Made by a program: the position numbers and the translations under genes. The notes beneath the pieces were generated by a model. That model was not told the origin of the DNA and searched no databases. It worked only from the letters and a program-made list of their open reading frames with translations. From contig NZ_FUYZ01000008.1 of assembly GCF_900167905.1 (NCBI RefSeq), positions 62,001 through 126,000 of the forward strand: 64,000 nt of DNA, written 5' to 3'. This document shows positions 8,585 through 33,187 of this stretch, piece after piece; within the stretch, counting starts at the first letter, position 1, and every line of letters begins with the position of its first letter. Source of the stretch: Soonwooa buanensis (GTDB lineage: Bacteria > Bacteroidota > Bacteroidia > Flavobacteriales > Weeksellaceae).

Positions 8585-8600
8585 TGTTTCACGTGAAACA
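8585..8600. other. parS: parS centromere site 1
   Basis: TGTTTCACGTGAAACA is a perfect 16-bp palindrome identical to the canonical chromosomal ParB-binding site. It lies in the ybeY-mnmG gap, 32 bases before the mnmG start. Established knowledge: ParB loads at such sites, which cluster near oriC, and spreads along the DNA to organise segregation. Confidence 0.95.
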
Positions 8601-8632: not shown

Positions 8633-10495
8633 ATGATATCAGAAATATATGACGTTATCGTCGTTGGTGCAGGTCATGCAGGTTGCGAAGCTGCTGCTGC
8701 TGCCGCCAATCTCGGTTCAAAAACATTAATGGTTACCATGAATATGCAAACCATTGGTCAAATGAGCTGTAATCCTGCAATGGGAGGTATTGCAAAAGGA
8801 CAAATTGTTAGAGAAATTGACGCTATGGGCGGTTATTCAGGGGTAATTTCTGATAAATCTGCGATACAATTCAAGATGTTGAATCTCTCTAAAGGTCCAG
8901 CAATGTGGTCGCCAAGAACACAAAATGACCGAATGTTATTCGCACAAGAATGGCGTATAGCATTAGAAAACACACCTAACCTTGACTTCTTCCAAGATAT
9001 GGTTAAAAACCTTATTATCGAAGATAATAAAGTCGTTGGTGTTATAACATCATTAGGTATAGAAATTCGTGGAAAATCGGTTGTATTAACTAATGGAACA
9101 TTCTTAAATGGTTTAATCCACGTTGGTGACAAACAACTTGGTGGCGGTAGAATGGGCGAACCTAGAGCTTATGGAATAACAGAACAATTGGTTTCTTTAG
9201 GTTTTGAATCTGGTAGAATGAAAACTGGTACACCTCCACGTGTTGACGGTCGTAGCCTAGATTATTCGAAAATGGAAGAGCAATCTGGTGATGAAAATCC
9301 GCAAAAATTCTCTTATTTAGAAACACCAAAACTAAAAGAACAGAGAAGTTGTTATATTGTCTATACCAACGAAGAAGTACATGAAGTTTTACGTTCAGGA
9401 TTCGATAGAAGTCCAATGTTTAACGGCACTATTCAAAGTTTAGGACCACGTTATTGTCCAAGTATTGAAGATAAAATCAATCGTTTTGCAGAACGTACAA
9501 GACATCAACTTTTTGTTGAACCAGAAGGTTGGAACACTGTAGAAATCTATGTTAACGGATTCAGTTCTTCACTTCCAGAAGATGTACAAATCAAAGCTAT
9601 GAAGCTTATTCCTGGTTTTGAAAATGTAAAAGTTTTCCGTCCGGGTTACGCTATTGAATATGATTACTTCCCTCCTACTCAACTTTATCATACTTTAGAA
9701 ACAAAATTAATTCAGAATCTATATTTTGCTGGTCAAATTAATGGTACAACAGGATACGAAGAAGCAGCTGGACAAGGTTTAATAGCGGGTATTAATGCTG
9801 CTCTTAAAGTTCAAGACATGCCTGAATTTACACTTAGTAGAGATGAAGCTTATATCGGCGTTCTTATCGATGATCTCATCACAAAAGGTACTGAAGAACC
9901 TTACAGAATGTTCACGTCAAGAGCTGAATATCGTCTACTTTTAAGACAAGATAATGCTGATATTAGATTAACTGAAAAGTCTTATAACCTAGGTTTAGCG
10001 ACACAAGAAAGACTTGATCGTGTTACGGAAAAAATAGCTAAGAGTCAGCAACTTGAAGACTTCTTACGAGAAACTTCTTTAAAACCAGGTATTATAAATC
10101 CTATTCTTGAAAGTATAGAGTCAAGTCCTGTAGATCAAGCTTATAGAGCTGCTCAGATTCTTACTAGACCTAACATGACACTTGAAAAACTTGAAGAAAT
10201 ACCAGCCGTTAAAGAATTTGCTAGTCAATTCAATGATGAAGTTAGAGAACAAGCTGAGATTAATATTAAGTACAGAGGTTATATTGAAAAGGAAAAAGAG
10301 AATGTATCTAAACTTAATCGTTTAGAAAACATCAAAATTCCAGAAGATTTTGACTTTACTAAAATCTCTAGTTTATCATCTGAAGCTAAACAAAAACTTA
10401 GCAAAGTAATGCCAAAAACCATTGCTCAAGCTGGTAGAATTAGCGGTGTTTCTCCTGCAGATATTAATGTTTTATTGGTATTTCTTGGTAGATAA
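8633..10495 (+). CDS. mnmG: tRNA uridine-5-carboxymethylaminomethyl modification enzyme MnmG
   Basis: The FAD-dependent partner of MnmE, it installs the cmnm5 group on U34 of certain tRNAs. The dinucleotide-binding motif VVGAGHAGCEAA is at residues 10-21, SCNPAMGGIAKG follows, and TGTPPR and GQINGTTGYEEAA are family signatures. The 620-residue length is standard. Many bacteria carry mnmG (gidA) next to oriC. Here parS sites lie 32 bases upstream and 20 bases downstream, and DnaA boxes start three bases after the stop. Confidence 0.97.
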   Translation: MISEIYDVIVVGAGHAGCEAAAAAANLGSKTLMVTMNMQTIGQMSCNPAMGGIAKGQIVREIDAMGGYSGVISDKSAIQFKMLNLSKGPAMWSPRTQNDRMLFAQEWRIALENTPNLDFFQDMVKNLIIEDNKVVGVITSLGIEIRGKSVVLTNGTFLNGLIHVGDKQLGGGRMGEPRAYGITEQLVSLGFESGRMKTGTPPRVDGRSLDYSKMEEQSGDENPQKFSYLETPKLKEQRSCYIVYTNEEVHEVLRSGFDRSPMFNGTIQSLGPRYCPSIEDKINRFAERTRHQLFVEPEGWNTVEIYVNGFSSSLPEDVQIKAMKLIPGFENVKVFRPGYAIEYDYFPPTQLYHTLETKLIQNLYFAGQINGTTGYEEAAGQGLIAGINAALKVQDMPEFTLSRDEAYIGVLIDDLITKGTEEPYRMFTSRAEYRLLLRQDNADIRLTEKSYNLGLATQERLDRVTEKIAKSQQLEDFLRETSLKPGIINPILESIESSPVDQAYRAAQILTRPNMTLEKLEEIPAVKEFASQFNDEVREQAEINIKYRGYIEKEKENVSKLNRLENIKIPEDFDFTKISSLSSEAKQKLSKVMPKTIAQAGRISGVSPADINVLLVFLGR

Positions 10496-10497
10496 AA

Positions 10498-10506
10498 TGT
10501 GGATAA
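10498..10506 (-). other. Perfect DnaA box (TTATCCACA)
   Basis: TGTGGATAA on the plus strand is the complement of the consensus DnaA box TTATCCACA. It sits three bases past the mnmG stop codon. Confidence 0.75.
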
Positions 10507-10515
10507 CTTGTTAAA

Positions 10516-10531
10516 TGTTCCACGTGAAACA
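10516..10531. other. parS: parS centromere site 2
   Basis: TGTTCCACGTGAAACA matches the ParB consensus TGTTNCACGTGAAACA, with one position off perfect symmetry. It lies 20 bases beyond the mnmG stop and about 1.9 kb from parS site 1. Confidence 0.93.
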
Positions 10532-10568
10532 TTTATATAAGCTTAAAACATAGCATAAGTATTAGATT

Positions 10569-10600
10569 GTGGAATTGTGGATAACTACAATTCCACTTTT
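10569..10600 (+). terminator. Hairpin with embedded DnaA box, possible mnmG terminator
   Basis: Arms GTGGAATTGT (10569-10578) and ACAATTCCAC (10587-10596) form a perfect 10-bp stem with an 8-base loop, followed by TTTT. The T run is short for a terminator. A second perfect DnaA box, TGTGGATAA (10576-10584), spans the left arm and loop, so the palindrome may be part of a replication or DnaA-binding element instead. Confidence 0.5.
10576..10584 (-). other. Perfect DnaA box (TTATCCACA), second copy
   Basis: TGTGGATAA in the same orientation as the box at 10498, 78 bases away, inside an inverted repeat. Confidence 0.72.
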
Positions 10601-10632
10601 AGAAAAGAATAAAAACTATTCATCAAATTTTA

Positions 10633-11457
10633 ATGAAAATAAAAGATCATTTTCTTAGTCAAGAAATTTTTGAATTAAAAGAAACCGAAACTAAAGGCGT
10701 TTGGAAAACCTCCCCTATTCCATCGAATCTTTCTAAATATTACGAAAGCGAAGATTACATTTCGCACCATCAAGATAGCGGAAGTACAAAAGAAAAATTA
10801 TATAAATTCTTACAAGGTTTCAATCTTTCTTACAAGAAAAGTATACTTTCAAAAAGCATAAATTCTGGTCAAAATAAAAAAGTTTTAGACTATGGTTGTG
10901 GCGCTGGAGAATTTGTAAAATACATAGAAAATGATTTTATAACTTTTGGTTTTGAACCAAATGATGATGCTAGAAATGCTGCAAAACAAAAAACTAGTAA
11001 GACCACTTTAGTATCAAATCTTGATGAAATTGAAGATCATTCTTTAGATGCGATTACGCTTTGGCATGTTTTCGAGCATGTGGAAAATCAGGAAGAAATG
11101 CTTTCAATCTTTTATAAAAAAATAAAAGCTGACGGAAAATTAATTATTGCTGTTCCGAATCCAACTTCGCATGATGCAATTTATTATAAAGAATTTTGGG
11201 CAGCCTACGACGTACCTCGACACGTTTATCATTTCTCAAGAAACGGAATGTTGAAACTTATGAACAACAATCCTTGGAAAGTTGAAAAAGTTAAACCTCT
11301 CCTACTCGACTCGTTTTATATTTCGATGTTGAGTGAAAAATATAAAAAATCAAGCCTTTTTTGGCTTAAAGCAAGTCTTCGCGGAGCGATTTCTAACATA
11401 AAAGCATCTTTTTCGGGCGAATTTTCGAGTTTGATATATATTATCGGAAAAAAGTAG
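10633..11457 (+). CDS. Class I SAM-dependent methyltransferase
   Basis: A cytosolic methyltransferase of the Methyltransf_23 / UbiG-like type. The SAM-binding motif VLDYGCGAGEF lies at about residues 84-94, an acidic post-motif (FGFEPND) follows, and LWHVFEHVENQEEML matches the later core strands. The first 40 residues (WKTSPIPSNLSKYYESEDYISH) resemble the N-terminal module of methyltransferases linked to glycan or lipid modification, but the substrate cannot be told. No signal peptide. It stands alone between mnmG and convergent pgk. Confidence 0.85.
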   Translation: MKIKDHFLSQEIFELKETETKGVWKTSPIPSNLSKYYESEDYISHHQDSGSTKEKLYKFLQGFNLSYKKSILSKSINSGQNKKVLDYGCGAGEFVKYIENDFITFGFEPNDDARNAAKQKTSKTTLVSNLDEIEDHSLDAITLWHVFEHVENQEEMLSIFYKKIKADGKLIIAVPNPTSHDAIYYKEFWAAYDVPRHVYHFSRNGMLKLMNNNPWKVEKVKPLLLDSFYISMLSEKYKKSSLFWLKASLRGAISNIKASFSGEFSSLIYIIGKK

Positions 11458-11676: not shown

Positions 11677-12870
11677 TTAATCTTTATTAATTGCAGCAAC
11701 TCCTGGAAGTTCTAGACCTTCCAAACTTTCCAACATTGCCCCTCCTCCAGTTGAAACATAACTAACTTTGTCAGCATAACCGAATTGCTTAACGAAAGCA
11801 ACACTATCGCCACCTCCAACTAACGAGAATGCTCCAAGTTTAGTTGCTTCTTCGATGCTATCACCTAAAGCAATTGTACCATCAGCAAATTTTGACATTT
11901 CGAAAACACCGATCGGTCCGTTCCAAAGAATTGTTTTAGAATTTAGGATCACATCATTAATTTTTGATCTCGATTGACGACCAGCATCCAATCCCATCCA
12001 ACCTTCGGGAATTTCGTAAACGCTCACTTCTTCAGTATTCGCATCATTACTGAATTGATCAGCAATAATCACATCACTTGGCAAATACACTTCAACTTTA
12101 TGTTGTTTCGCTTTTTCTAAAATTTCTAAAGCCAATTGCAACTTATCATCTTCTACTAAAGAATTTCCGATTTTTCCTCCTAAAGCTTTAATAAACGTAA
12201 ATGCCATACCACCACCAATAATTAAATTATCAATTGCTGGTAAAATATTTTCAATAATAGTAATTTTAGTAGAAACTTTAGATCCACCAAGTATTGCAGT
12301 TACAGGTTTTTGACCAGATTTAAGAACTTTATCAATTGCTTCTAATTCTTTAGCCATCAACAAACCGAAAAATTTAGTTGAAGGGAAAAACTTAGCAATA
12401 ACTGCTGTTGAAGCATGCGCTCTATGCGCTGTACCAAAGGCATCGTTAACGTAAGCATCACCTAACTTAGAAAGTTGCTCTGCAAATACTTCATCACCTT
12501 TCTCCTCTTCTGCATGGAATCTAAGATTCTCTAACAATAAAATTTCACCAGCTTGTAAAGCTGCAGCAGCTTCTTCTGCTTTTTCACCAATCGATTCTTC
12601 AACAAACTTAACTTCTTTTCCTAAAACTTTAGAAACTTCAGAAACAATGTTCTTAAGCGAATATTTATCATTAACTTCACCTTTTGGACGACCAAGATGC
12701 GTCATCAAGATTACCGAACCGCCATCAGCCAAAATCTTATCAACTGTAGGTTTAACAGCAACAATTCTTGTATTGTCACTTACGTTAAGATTGTCATCTT
12801 GCGGAACATTGAAGTCAACGCGTACCAAAGCTTTTTTGCCAGAAAAATTGAAATCCTTAATTGTTTTCAT
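11677..12870 (-). CDS. pgk: Phosphoglycerate kinase
   Basis: Glycolytic kinase that transfers phosphate from 1,3-bisphosphoglycerate to ADP. The N-terminal [13 protein letters not shown] is the family signature, THLGRPKG carries the substrate-binding arginine, and the C-terminal [16 protein letters not shown] and [13 protein letters not shown] form the nucleotide site. The 397-residue length is normal. It is transcribed leftward away from the 635-bp pgk-rpiB gap, with a TACATTTG element 61 bases upstream. Confidence 0.98.
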
Positions 12871-12931
12871 TCGTATTTATTAAATTTATTTCAGATTGGT
12901 TTGATATTTGAAATACTAGTTTCAACGATTA

Positions 12932-12939
12932 CAAATGTA
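12932..12939 (-). promoter_or_regulatory. -7 element for pgk
   Basis: TACATTTG on the minus strand fits TAnnTTTG. A TTG lies 14 bases further upstream, which is short of the usual spacing. Confidence 0.45.
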
Positions 12940-13462
12940 AGATTTCTCTTTATCAAAAGACGAACTTTTCACACAAAAGATTCCACACCGCTACAACAAT
13001 CATTATCTAACAATTTTATTTATTTAAAAAAGAAAGAATATTGTTATTGTATATTGTAGTTGTGAGTTTTGTGGAAAAGTATTTTTGAAATTTTTGATAA
13101 CATTTAATTTAAAGTCTATTCATATTCTATTAACATTTAAGACGTTTGATTTTCAATAATTTAACTGAGTTTTCCACAAATGCTGATAAATATTAATAAG
13201 TCTGTATTATGGATATTTTAAGTGGGGAAAATATTCGGATTGGCACACTAAAAGTTTTTCAAGTTTGGGAATTGTTTTTCCATTTAGAAAGTGCAATATG
13301 AATTTTAATTCAAACTAAAAAGAACAATCTCAACATAGTTTTCCACATTTGTTTTCGTAGTTTTCCACAGGTTTTGATAGGTAATATTAACAAAGTATTA
13401 ATTATCGAGATTTTATTTAGTTATTCTTCTCTTCCAAAGATTATCAATCAACAGAATAATAT

Positions 13463-13470
13463 TAAATTTG
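13463..13470 (+). promoter_or_regulatory. -7 element for rpiB
   Basis: TAAATTTG fits the Bacteroidota consensus TAnnTTTG, 35 bases before the rpiB ATG. No clear -33 TTG. Confidence 0.4.
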
Positions 13471-13505
13471 TAGAAAATCTATCTAATATTATATAAAAGT
13501 AAATT

Positions 13506-13937
13506 ATGAAAAAAATAGCTATTGCCGCTGACCATGCAGGTTTTGAGTACAAAGAATATCTTAAAGAACAATTAAAAGATAAATACGAGATTCAGGATTT
13601 TGGGACACATTCTTTGGATTCTGTTGATTATCCAGATTTTGTACATCCTACGGCTTCTTCTGTGGAAAACGGTGATAACGAACTTGGGATTTTGATTTGT
13701 GGTAGTGGTCAAGGTGTACAGATTACAGCCAACAAACATCAACAGATCCGTTGTGCGCTAGCGTGGATGCCAGAGATTGCAACATTGTCTAGACAACATA
13801 ATAATGCTAATATGGTCGCTCTTCCTGCAAGATTTATTGCAAAAGAGCTTGCCTTAGAAATCGTTGAGAAATTCCTCACTACAGATTTCGAAGGAGGCCG
13901 ACATCAGAACAGAGTCAACAAGATTGCTTGTTCTTAA
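13506..13937 (+). CDS. rpiB: Ribose-5-phosphate isomerase B
   Basis: Interconverts ribulose-5-phosphate and ribose-5-phosphate in the pentose phosphate pathway. The 143-residue product starts with the phosphate-binding AADHAGFEYK (Asp9, His10), and Cys65 in ICGSGQG is the catalytic cysteine position of the RpiB/LacAB family. The HNNANMVALPARF stretch is also typical. LacA/LacB-like sugar isomerases are alternatives, but a single RpiB-length gene in this context favours RpiB. Confidence 0.95.
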   Translation: MKKIAIAADHAGFEYKEYLKEQLKDKYEIQDFGTHSLDSVDYPDFVHPTASSVENGDNELGILICGSGQGVQITANKHQQIRCALAWMPEIATLSRQHNNANMVALPARFIAKELALEIVEKFLTTDFEGGRHQNRVNKIACS

Positions 13938-13943
13938 TTGTAA

Positions 13944-13980
13944 AAACCTTAGTATTTCTTAAAATATTAAGGTTTATTAA
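13944..13980 (+). terminator. Probable rpiB terminator
   Basis: AAACCTTA (13944-13951) pairs with TAAGGTTT (13968-13975), with an inner TATTT/AAATA continuation and one mismatch. The T run after it is weak. Confidence 0.5.
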
Positions 13981-13991
13981 TTTTTAAACCT

Positions 13992-16136
13992 ATGAAAAGA
14001 AATAGAAGTCTAAAAAACGATCAGAAACTCATCGAATTAGGGAGAATTATTCTGCGTTTTATGAACCAAAATACCAACAAAATCTATAATTATAAACAGA
14101 TTGCGAATGGTATAGATTACAAAAATCCAAGACAACGAGAATTGGTTATACAAGCCTTACATCGTCTGCTTGCGAGTGAAAAAATTAAAGAAACTGAAAA
14201 AGGTAAATACATCATCAACTTAAAAATCGAAGGTACTTTAACAGGTATTATCGATTTTAACCAATCTGGTAACGCTTATGTAAGTGTCGAAGGTATGGAA
14301 GATGATATTTTTATCCATCAAAAAAATGTAAAAGATGCCTTGCAAGGTGATAAAGTCCTTATTGTGACTTATCATTTTAAAGGTAAAAAACTAGAAGGTT
14401 CTGTTGTTAACGTTCTCGAACGTGCAAAAGATACTTTTGTTGGGACTTTCCAAGATATACCACATAAGGATTTTGGATTCGTAGTTTTTGATAAAAAGAA
14501 TATGCATTCGGATATGTTTATCCCGAAAGATAAAGTCCATGATGCGACAGATGGCGATAAAGTCATTGTTAAAATGATTAAATGGGATGCAGGAAGCAAA
14601 AATCCAGAAGGCGAAATTATTCAAGTTTTAGGAAAACCTGGCGAGCACGAAACCGAAATTCATGCAATTTTGGCTGAATATGGTTTGCCTTACAATTTCC
14701 CACCAGAAGTTGAAAAAGAAGCTGACGAAATCGATACTGAAATTCGTCCAGAGGAAGTTGCAAAACGTTGGGATATGCGAAATATTTGCACGTTTACCAT
14801 CGATCCAAAAGATGCAAAAGACTTTGACGACGCACTTTCTATTCAAAAATTAGAAAACGGAAATTGGCAAATTGGTGTTCACATTGCGGACGTTTCACAT
14901 TATGTTCGCCCTGGGACTTTGCTGGATGACGAAGCTTATGATCGCGCAACTTCAGTTTATTTGGTGGATCGCGTGGTGCCGATGTTACCTGAGGTTCTTA
15001 GTAACGGCGTTTGTTCGCTTCGTCCTAATGAAGATAAATACACGTTTTCAGCAGTTTTCGAAATGGATGAAGAAGCTAAAGTTAAAAAACAATGGTTTGG
15101 TCGCACAGTAACGCATTCTGACAGAAGATTTACTTACGAAGAAGCGCAAGAACGTATCGAAACTAAAGAAGGCGATTATCAAGAAGAAATTAATAAATTG
15201 GATGATCTTGCAAAGATTCTCCGCGATGAACGTATCAAAAACGGTGCGATTACTTTTGATAGAAGCGAAGTAAGATTTAATCTAGATGCAGACGGTAATC
15301 CGATTGGTGTTTATTTTAAAATTAGTAAAGATTCGAATCATTTGATTGAAGAATTTATGCTTTTGGCGAACAGAAAAGTGTCAGAATTTGTTTCATTAAA
15401 TAAAAGAAATGAGCCTTCTCACAACACTTTTATTTATCGTGTTCACGAAGATCCAGATCCTACCAAATTAAATGCTCTACGCGATTTTGTTGGTAATTTT
15501 GGTTACAAAATGAATTTAGCCAATGCTAAAACCACAACCGAATCGATGAACAAACTTTTACAAGAAGTAAAAGGTAAAGCGGAAGAAAATATGATCGAAA
15601 CGCTTGCTATGCGAAGCATGAGTAAAGCTAAATATACCACCGAAAGTCTTGGTCATTACGGCCTAGGATTCGAGTATTATTCGCACTTTACATCGCCTAT
15701 TCGTCGTTATCCAGATGTTATTGCGCATCGATTATTACAACATTATTTAGATGGTGGCAAGTCGGTTGATGTGCACGAAGTTGAAGAAAAAGCTAAACAT
15801 TGTAGCTCGATGGAGCGTCTTGCAGCCGATGCTGAAAGAGATTCTATCAAATACATGCAGGTCAAATTTATGGAGAAACATGTTGGCGAATATTTCAACG
15901 GTGTTATCTCTGGAGTTTCGGACTTTGGTTTCTGGGTAGAAATCCCTGAAAACGGCGCTGAAGGTATGATAAAACTTCGCGATTTAATAGACGATTCTTA
16001 TAGTTTTGATGCTAAGAATTATGCGATCGTTGGTAGCAGAACTGGTAATACTTACCAATTGGGTGACCAAGTCAAGATAAAAGTTATGAAAGCTAATTTG
16101 TTGGCTAAACAATTGGATTTCAAGATTATCAATTAA
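13992..16136 (+). CDS. rnr: Ribonuclease R
   Basis: A processive 3'-5' exoribonuclease that degrades structured RNA and takes part in RNA quality control. At 714 residues it has an N-terminal winged-helix region (about 10-75), two cold-shock (OB) domains (about 80-215), the RNB catalytic domain with the acidic motif DPKDAKDFDDALS starting at residue 271, and a C-terminal S1 domain (GVISGVSDFGFWVEI, from about residue 636). It follows rpiB by 54 bases, but a probable terminator lies between them. Confidence 0.96.
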   Translation: MKRNRSLKNDQKLIELGRIILRFMNQNTNKIYNYKQIANGIDYKNPRQRELVIQALHRLLASEKIKETEKGKYIINLKIEGTLTGIIDFNQSGNAYVSVEGMEDDIFIHQKNVKDALQGDKVLIVTYHFKGKKLEGSVVNVLERAKDTFVGTFQDIPHKDFGFVVFDKKNMHSDMFIPKDKVHDATDGDKVIVKMIKWDAGSKNPEGEIIQVLGKPGEHETEIHAILAEYGLPYNFPPEVEKEADEIDTEIRPEEVAKRWDMRNICTFTIDPKDAKDFDDALSIQKLENGNWQIGVHIADVSHYVRPGTLLDDEAYDRATSVYLVDRVVPMLPEVLSNGVCSLRPNEDKYTFSAVFEMDEEAKVKKQWFGRTVTHSDRRFTYEEAQERIETKEGDYQEEINKLDDLAKILRDERIKNGAITFDRSEVRFNLDADGNPIGVYFKISKDSNHLIEEFMLLANRKVSEFVSLNKRNEPSHNTFIYRVHEDPDPTKLNALRDFVGNFGYKMNLANAKTTTESMNKLLQEVKGKAEENMIETLAMRSMSKAKYTTESLGHYGLGFEYYSHFTSPIRRYPDVIAHRLLQHYLDGGKSVDVHEVEEKAKHCSSMERLAADAERDSIKYMQVKFMEKHVGEYFNGVISGVSDFGFWVEIPENGAEGMIKLRDLIDDSYSFDAKNYAIVGSRTGNTYQLGDQVKIKVMKANLLAKQLDFKIIN

Positions 16137-32509: not shown

Positions 32510-32540
32510 AAAAGAGAATCGGTTACAATTCTCTTTTGAA
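32508..32540. terminator. Bidirectional terminator, DUF389 / DUF4177
   Basis: AAAAGAGAAT (32510-32519) pairs with ATTCTCTTTT (32528-32537), directly after the DUF389 stop. It overlaps the 3' end of the convergent gene. Confidence 0.72.
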
Positions 32541-32717
32541 AGTGTACATGCTTGAAAGGGATGTTCCCATTGAGCTAATTACTTTTACAGCTACAAGCTC
32601 CCAACCGTCTTGACCTAACTGGTTTAGTACTTCGTCGATTTCTTTTGTGGGAACTTCTGTACTCCAAACACTTTTAGATTTAACTTCAACAGTTTTGTAT
32701 TCGAAACGTTTTCTCAT
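32523..32717 (-). CDS. DUF4177 small protein
   Basis: A 64-residue soluble protein. The pattern FEYKTVEV ... LNQLGQDGWELVAVK ... YTFKREL matches DUF4177, a small alpha/beta family without assigned function. No signal peptide. It stands alone. Confidence 0.82.
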   Translation of the reverse strand: MRKRFEYKTVEVKSKSVWSTEVPTKEIDEVLNQLGQDGWELVAVKVISSMGTSLSSMYTFKREL

Positions 32718-33018
32718 ATCAAGTAAATTTTTCTAAAGATATTTAATTATTCTTTGTGTTGGGTTAATCGCAAGGAGAAACAAAGTTTTATGAAAGTGTA
32801 GCGCTTTATTTAAGGAAAACAAAGGCACTTCGTTTACTGAAGTAAAACAAAGAGTTCACTAAAAAAATCTCTTTTAAAAAATAGTATTGACAGAAGCCTT
32901 TCAGGGTTTCAAACCCTGAAAGGCTTTTTTATTCGATGAGACAAATCCAGATTTTTGAGGATTTGGGTGGTTCTTTATTGGACGACTTTCTCAACTGCGA
33001 CCAATTGCGGCCGCGATA
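32718..33018. other. Non-coding stretch with orphan hairpin
   Basis: No supportable gene. The motif AACAAAG occurs three times at about 32790-32865. A 15-bp perfect stem, AGCCTTTCAGGGTTT (32895-32909) against AAACCCTGAAAGGCT (32911-32925), is followed by T6. It looks like a strong rightward terminator, yet the nearest rightward gene ends 385 bases upstream and already has its own terminator. It may close a small RNA, or be a dispersed palindrome. Confidence 0.55.
32895..32931 (+). terminator. Orphan strong terminator-like hairpin
   Basis: 15-bp stem with TTTTTTA directly after the right arm. No rightward gene lies directly upstream. Function unassigned. Confidence 0.65.
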
Positions 33019-33103
33019 GAAGCGGCATCCTTTTGTCTGAGTGAGGCGGCGGAGCGCAGCGGAGCCGACCGACCGAAGACAAAAGATATAGCGGATAGCA
33101 CGA
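33019..33103 (+). repeat. GC-rich intergenic repeat, copy A
   Basis: A GC-rich island in AT-rich DNA. It shares GAAGCGGCATCCTTTT, a long GAGTGAGG-GGCGGAGCG-AGCGGAGCC block and AAAAGATATAGCG with the inverted copy at 52923-53011. CTTTTGTC (33030-33037) can pair with GACAAAAG (33078-33085). In copy B the same stem positions differ but still pair. It lies 85 bases upstream of glyS. No ORF or insertion-sequence features. Confidence 0.8.
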
Positions 33104-33136
33104 ATTGTCCGCCCAAATAATTTTGCAGTTCGACCG

Positions 33137-33167
33137 TTGACTAGGACAAAAGAAAAGCCTATTTTTG
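33137..33167 (+). promoter_or_regulatory. Promoter of glyS (-33 TTG and -7 TATTTTTG)
   Basis: TTG at 33137-33139 and TATTTTTG at 33160-33167, 20 bases apart, fit the Bacteroidota promoter TTG-N17-23-TAnnTTTG. The ATG follows 20 bases later. Confidence 0.7.
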
Positions 33168-33187
33168 CATAATAACTCATTGGAACT

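Follow-up and report, generated by a model that had tools for sequence, protein, structure and literature searches.

The window, that is, the whole stretch of 64,000 nucleotides that was analysed, contains a gene-free gap of 635 bp (12871–13505) with a GC content of 23.6%, placed between two divergent genes: pgk on the minus strand (11677–12870; Pfam PGK, 1.5e-152) and rpiB on the plus strand (13506–13937; Pfam LacAB_rpiB, 3.3e-57). Four exact copies of the DnaA box TTTTCCACA are found in the gap, namely box A (13070–13078, minus strand), box B (13170–13178, plus strand), box D (13339–13347, plus strand) and box E (13361–13369, plus strand). A fifth one, box C (13223–13231, minus strand), reads TTTTCCCCA and has one mismatch. 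A previous reading of the sequence only had proposed a candidate oriC between pgk and rpiB from the four exact boxes in AT-rich, gene-free DNA, and its description of the gap is confirmed. It had also described the gap as longer than its neighbours, which is true of the adjoining intergenic gaps (137, 219, and 54 bp, taking ORFs of at least 90 aa) but does not make it the sole long gap, as the one at 32510–33187 is longer. An Rfam scan gave no family match in the gap, its sole hit (E = 0.54) falling inside pgk, and a known structured RNA at this position was rejected. The motif TAnnTTTG, which we take to be the Bacteroidota −7 promoter consensus, is present at both ends of the gap: at 12932–12939 on the minus strand, within a block conserved across the 44 aligned sequences, as the probable −7 element of pgk, and at 13463–13470 on the plus strand as that of rpiB. 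Hence, both genes are probably transcribed from the gap, which suggests that they would be transcribed outward from the putative origin.

On the other side of pgk lies mnmG (gidA; 8633–10495, plus strand; Pfam GIDA, 2e-165), flanked by two parS sites that match TGTTNCACGTGNAACA exactly, at 8585–8600 and 10516–10531. These are 4.3 and 2.3 kb from the gap and are the only exact matches to this word in the draft genome. Only the nearer site had been noticed previously, correctly placed at 2.3 kb; the second completes the picture. A search of 40 genomes found at least one parS match in 29 of them, with 0 to 3 sites per genome.

The abundance of boxes in the gap is far above the expectation. The consensus TTWTCCACA has four exact occurrences there, against a mean of 0.025 in dinucleotide shuffles, and at least four were reached in none of 2000 shuffles. 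Over the whole window there are eight copies of TTTTCCACA for 1.63 expected (eight were reached in 0/100 shuffles), including three outside the gap, at 11079, 11515, and 13661, which the sequence-only reading had left out, as it had box C and two copies of TTATCCACA at 10498 and 10576. The draft genome (3.33 Mb) has 67 copies, of which eight lie within 8.7 kb at this locus. Because the reversed control word is more common (115 copies genome-wide), TTTTCCACA is not generally over-represented in the genome.

The boxes are widely conserved at this position. Among 48 relatives having the pgk-rpiB pair, there are 60 exact boxes in the 31,580 bp upstream of pgk, and 23 in the 903,279 bp that make up the remainder of the same loci. 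At least one exact box is present in the gap of 39 relatives and none in the other nine, so the persistence in related genomes on which the sequence-only reading had made the candidate depend is indeed observed. When the window is included, the 49 gaps contain 64 exact boxes for 1.10 expected. Six loci identical to other genomes (L150, L151, L162, L163, L170, and L178) were left out of these counts and of the 44-sequence alignment; near-duplicates were kept in the counts for 48 relatives and 49 gaps, as well as in the 56-sequence layout and the 59-sequence triplet counts given below, so that independence is overstated in all of these. The gene neighbourhood is also conserved. Among 20 relatives compared over about 20 kb, the divergent pgk-rpiB pair is found in 18 and mnmG in the same stretch in 16. 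In a set of named loci from the genome collection, 55 of the 67 were examined (L204–L212 and L214–L216 being left out), and the pair occurs within 2.5 kb in 36 of these; the 19 others correspond to 17 distant lineages plus Riemerella and Bergeyella cardium. The named relatives include Chryseobacterium, Kaistella, Cloacibacterium, Planobacterium, and Amniculibacterium, which suggests the family Weeksellaceae.

Six of 30 pgk loci have rpiB elsewhere (G002, G003, G004, G017, G033, and G034), and these indicate to which gene the boxes are attached. In each of the six, the 640 bp upstream of pgk contain one or more exact boxes; G002, G004, G033, and G034 have an exact D-like box at 424–632 bp from pgk. 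Six deeper relatives, among them a member of another family of the order (G038), have a minus-strand box within one mismatch at 147–171 bp from pgk. In four Chryseobacterium loci (L154, L158, L164, and L176), pgk and rpiB are about 2.2 kb apart; the boxes remain at the pgk end, which places the additional DNA between them and rpiB. To judge from these sequences, the boxes are linked to pgk and not to rpiB, which refines the reading of a pgk-rpiB origin.

The spacing between boxes also recurs. For this comparison, box D was taken as the anchor and defined as the sole exact plus-strand box at 380–660 bp from pgk, the first of the two plus-strand boxes being used for the window. This left 35 of 56 sequences, after removal of 7 near-duplicates and of 14 without exactly one exact plus-strand box. 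A minus-strand box A with at most one mismatch is found at −268 from box D in 19 of the 35, when the 26 slid controls have a mean of 0.04 and a maximum of 1. Box B, under the same tolerance, is at −168 in 11 of 35 (32 slid controls, mean 0.62, maximum 5), and box C is at −116 in 14 of 35 (32 slid controls, mean 0.78, maximum 13). Box C is the least secure of boxes A to D because one of its slid controls reached 13, against the 14 observed. In L179, L180, L181, and L185, an additional minus-strand TTATTCACA recurs at a fixed distance from box D, about −157, and may explain this high control. Box E is weakly conserved, with a counterpart within one mismatch at +22 in 3 of 56 sequences, in a layout count that is partly circular, the anchor having been chosen partly by its support from other boxes.

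The DNA to the left of box A is arranged in this order: an A/T tract, a triplet repeat, a weak box, and then box A itself. The tract (13001–13053) is a probable DNA unwinding element; by calculated stability, it is among the least stable 40-mers of 12001–14500, the single least stable 40-mer in the window being at 13456–13495, by the rpiB promoter and away from box A. When stability is averaged over 52 sequences, its minimum for 30-mers falls on the one that begins 57 bp to the left of box A. The triplets TTG-TAG-TTG follow on the plus strand at 13054–13062 (3′-GTT-5′ and 3′-GAT-5′ when read on the opposite polarity, a run of three GNT). The weak box (13061–13069, minus strand) has four mismatches to TTWTCCACA and abuts box A; a similar TGTGAATTT is found in many relatives. 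In 40 of 59 sequences, though not in the window itself, the word TGTTGTT is present at most 45 bp to the left of box A, while elsewhere in the first 600 bp it is found on the same strand in two sequences and on the opposite strand in none. Runs of at least three consecutive 3′-GNT-5′ triplets are present at box A in 33 of 59 sequences, when 0.1% of the 3141 gap positions taken at random have them, under a rule that was chosen only after viewing the box A alignment, itself made with 12 of 56 sequences left out.

This module resembles the basal unwinding system (BUS) of the Bacillus subtilis oriC, where a triplet repeat, a weak box, and a strong box are also found in succession, more boxes lying on the opposite side (PMC6669920, PMC8287927, PMC10721633). 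In the excerpts of one of these, the weaker box of the BUS is allowed up to four mismatches (PMC8287927), and box A with its abutting partner conforms to this. The similarity does not extend to the triplets, which here are mainly 3′-GTT-5′ and not 3′-GAT-5′, nor to the genetic context, as the module is linked to pgk and not to dnaA. Triplets following the published trio rule (three 3′-NAN-5′ within 16 bp; PMC8287927) are found in only 3 of 59 sequences (G006, G017, and G022), when a run of three such triplets occurs at 34% of the 3141 random gap positions; in the window, the run at box A is of one. Canonical DnaA-trio membership was therefore rejected. In terms of sequence, the box A module has the place and the order of a BUS without the strict trio. 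Of 118 genomes in the order that were searched with a strict tandem-box pattern, four gave a match, and one of these matches (L268) lies in surroundings that look like sugar-nucleotide genes. The word "Bacteroid" is absent from the main texts of the three BUS papers (PMC6669920, PMC8287927, PMC10721633).

Strand asymmetry turns close to the gap. Contiguous skew was computed on four stretches of 140–180 kb chosen around the locus, so that turns outside them are invisible; the window's own contig, at 165 kb, is one of them. After correction for gene strand, the minimum falls within the gap for G028 and G009, 7 kb from it in G001, and 16 kb to its right in the window's contig. The sequence-only reading would have been undermined by a minimum far from the locus, and these distances are in its favour. 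Uncorrected minima lie 10–74 kb from the gap across the four stretches, showing that the strand correction matters. At the scale of the chromosome, 20 samples of 20 kb (10–15% of each genome) were taken in G028, G009, and G001, that is, in three of the six single-contig genomes of the family. The cumulative raw GC skew of these samples reaches its minimum at the locus or next to it in each of the three: in G028 the lowest bin precedes the locus by 114 kb and the next one, 24 kb after the locus, is already rising; in G009 the lowest value is common to the bin at the locus and the preceding bin; and in G001 the curve hardly rises or falls between the locus and a point 635 kb past it. When gene strand is included as a covariate, the fit allows the locus in the three genomes at the resolution of the sampling, the best position in G009 being −208 kb from it. 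The sequence-only reading had also remarked that dnaA is often not beside the origin in this phylum. This is borne out by three complete relatives in which dnaA starts at base 1 and the gap is found at 1.70, 2.20, and 2.87 Mb, so that some 1.05 Mb separates it from dnaA along the shorter arc if the three records are circular.

Several explanations must be weighed against these observations. The strongest competitor is that the true origin is the gap between mnmG and the methyltransferase gene (10496–10632), the pgk gap then being an accessory DnaA-binding region. Two exact TTATCCACA boxes (10498–10506 and 10576–10584) surround the parS site that follows mnmG, and the same pair recurs in the same-genus relative G001 (locus L070). 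Moreover, in the excerpted text of two reports, oriC is predicted beside mnmG, with support from GC skew, in the Flavobacteriaceae Mariniflexile and Algorimicrobium (PMC11278836, PMC12843772). In the part of PMC11278836 available, the oriC and ter labels of the Figure 3 legend look swapped relative to the text. These predictions concern the same region of the map, as mnmG here ends 2.4 kb from the pgk gap, and the skew, which cannot resolve sites 2.4 kb apart, does not decide between the two gaps. They differ from the present case, as far as the excerpts go, in that the conserved box array here is upstream of pgk and not beside mnmG. The distribution of boxes is what separates the two sites: the mnmG-methyltransferase gap has an exact box in 2 of 44 relatives (3 boxes in 6,772 bp), when the pgk gap has one in 39 of 48. 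As a family-wide origin, the mnmG gap was rejected on this basis, and we regard it as improbable for the window as well.

A more distant alternative takes the boxes as DnaA-controlled operators for the transcription of pgk and rpiB, with no origin involved. In its favour, promoter-like TAnnTTTG motifs occur at both gap ends. Yet operators would leave unexplained the turn of the skew, the proximity of parS, and the melting-prone module by box A, and the boxes persist where rpiB sits elsewhere; this explanation is very improbable. The remaining one is that A/T-rich nonamers have clustered by accident in a long, AT-rich gap; the GC content of 23.6% speaks for this, as it promotes A/T-rich words. 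It is contradicted by the shuffles, none of which yielded four boxes, by the excess of boxes over the 49 gaps, and by the recurrence of their spacing in relatives; such an accident was rejected, its likelihood being negligible.

The pgk gap is thus very probably oriC, because DnaA boxes recur in it at set distances in many related species, and we assign to this prediction a probability of roughly 0.92. Its basis in the sequence consists of the enrichment in boxes, their recurring spacing, the linkage to pgk, the skew turn, the placement of parS, and the melting-prone DNA by box A. From these we infer DnaA binding, melting, and the start of replication at the gap. The process might be as follows. 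DnaA would bind box A together with the adjoining weak box, and boxes B to E would supply more DnaA through looping. The DnaA oligomer would then extend from box A onto one strand of the triplet repeat on its left and melt the A/T tract at about 13001–13053, where the replicative helicase would be loaded. The two parS sites around mnmG would constitute a centromere close by, onto which ParB would load and by which the new origins would be segregated.

Elizabethkingia is a genus that we presume to be related to the organism of the window. For Elizabethkingia meningoseptica G4076, Ori-Finder predicted, according to the excerpted text of PMC8994065, a 649-bp oriC (bases 740720–741368) that has three DnaA boxes and is far from dnaA; this is similar to the pgk gap in size, in having DnaA boxes, and in its distance from dnaA. 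The excerpts do not name its flanking genes, and the two may be the same locus. The literature searched, part of it in excerpt and with DoriC outside the search, gave no pgk- or rpiB-linked origin in this family.

The unusual triplets raise the question of the protein that would read them. In B. subtilis, according to the excerpts of PMC10721633, strand separation is slowed when the middle base of the trio is thymine, and base capture by DnaA involves N187, R202, and E228, among others, none of the base-capture residues being universally conserved. Aligned to B. subtilis, the window's DnaA lacks these three, having Q for N187, Q for R202, and S for E228; it also has A for I193. Its gene is at L271:994-2445. 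A set of 25 related DnaAs shares 64–97% identity with the window's. Residues 187 and 193 are Q and A, respectively, in each of the 24 whose sequence spans the sites; at 202, Q or A is found in 17 of 24, and at 228, S is found in 22 of 25. Five deeper DnaAs, 44–49% identical, have Q or M at 187, V or T at 193, I or V at 202, and V or A at 228, and the deeper relatives are without the GTT repeat at the same pgk site. The DnaA genes of G006, G024, and G034 dropped out of the comparison because the reading frame was selected by a motif. The PGK of the five deeper relatives is 69–74% identical. The DnaA of the window's genome and of 23 of the 25 nearer relatives has K in place of R in the GGRDH motif, which belongs to the DNA-binding domain.

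A change in the unwinding code of this clade, in which DnaA would read a 3′-GTT-5′ repeat instead of 3′-GAT-5′ with an altered base-capture pocket, is conceivable, though we consider it doubtful. Residues 193, 202, and 228 divide along a single deep branching of the tree, a pattern that is correlative and does not prove a joint change. The position of N187, which in B. subtilis reads the middle base, already carries Q in most of the deeper relatives, and this is an argument against an altered code; since Q187 is found in the nearer relatives and in most of the deeper ones, the change at this position is shared and does not track the type of triplet.

Several complete genomes of this group are numbered from dnaA, which would not be their origin, the pgk gap being about 1 Mb away from it in three complete relatives if the records are circular. 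A family-wide, pgk-linked origin would provide a fixed point for coverage-based estimates of growth rate, chromosome maps, and replicating plasmids. With the recurrence of a noncanonical triplet repeat beside it, the universality proposed for the DnaA-trio code could be put to the test in Bacteroidota.
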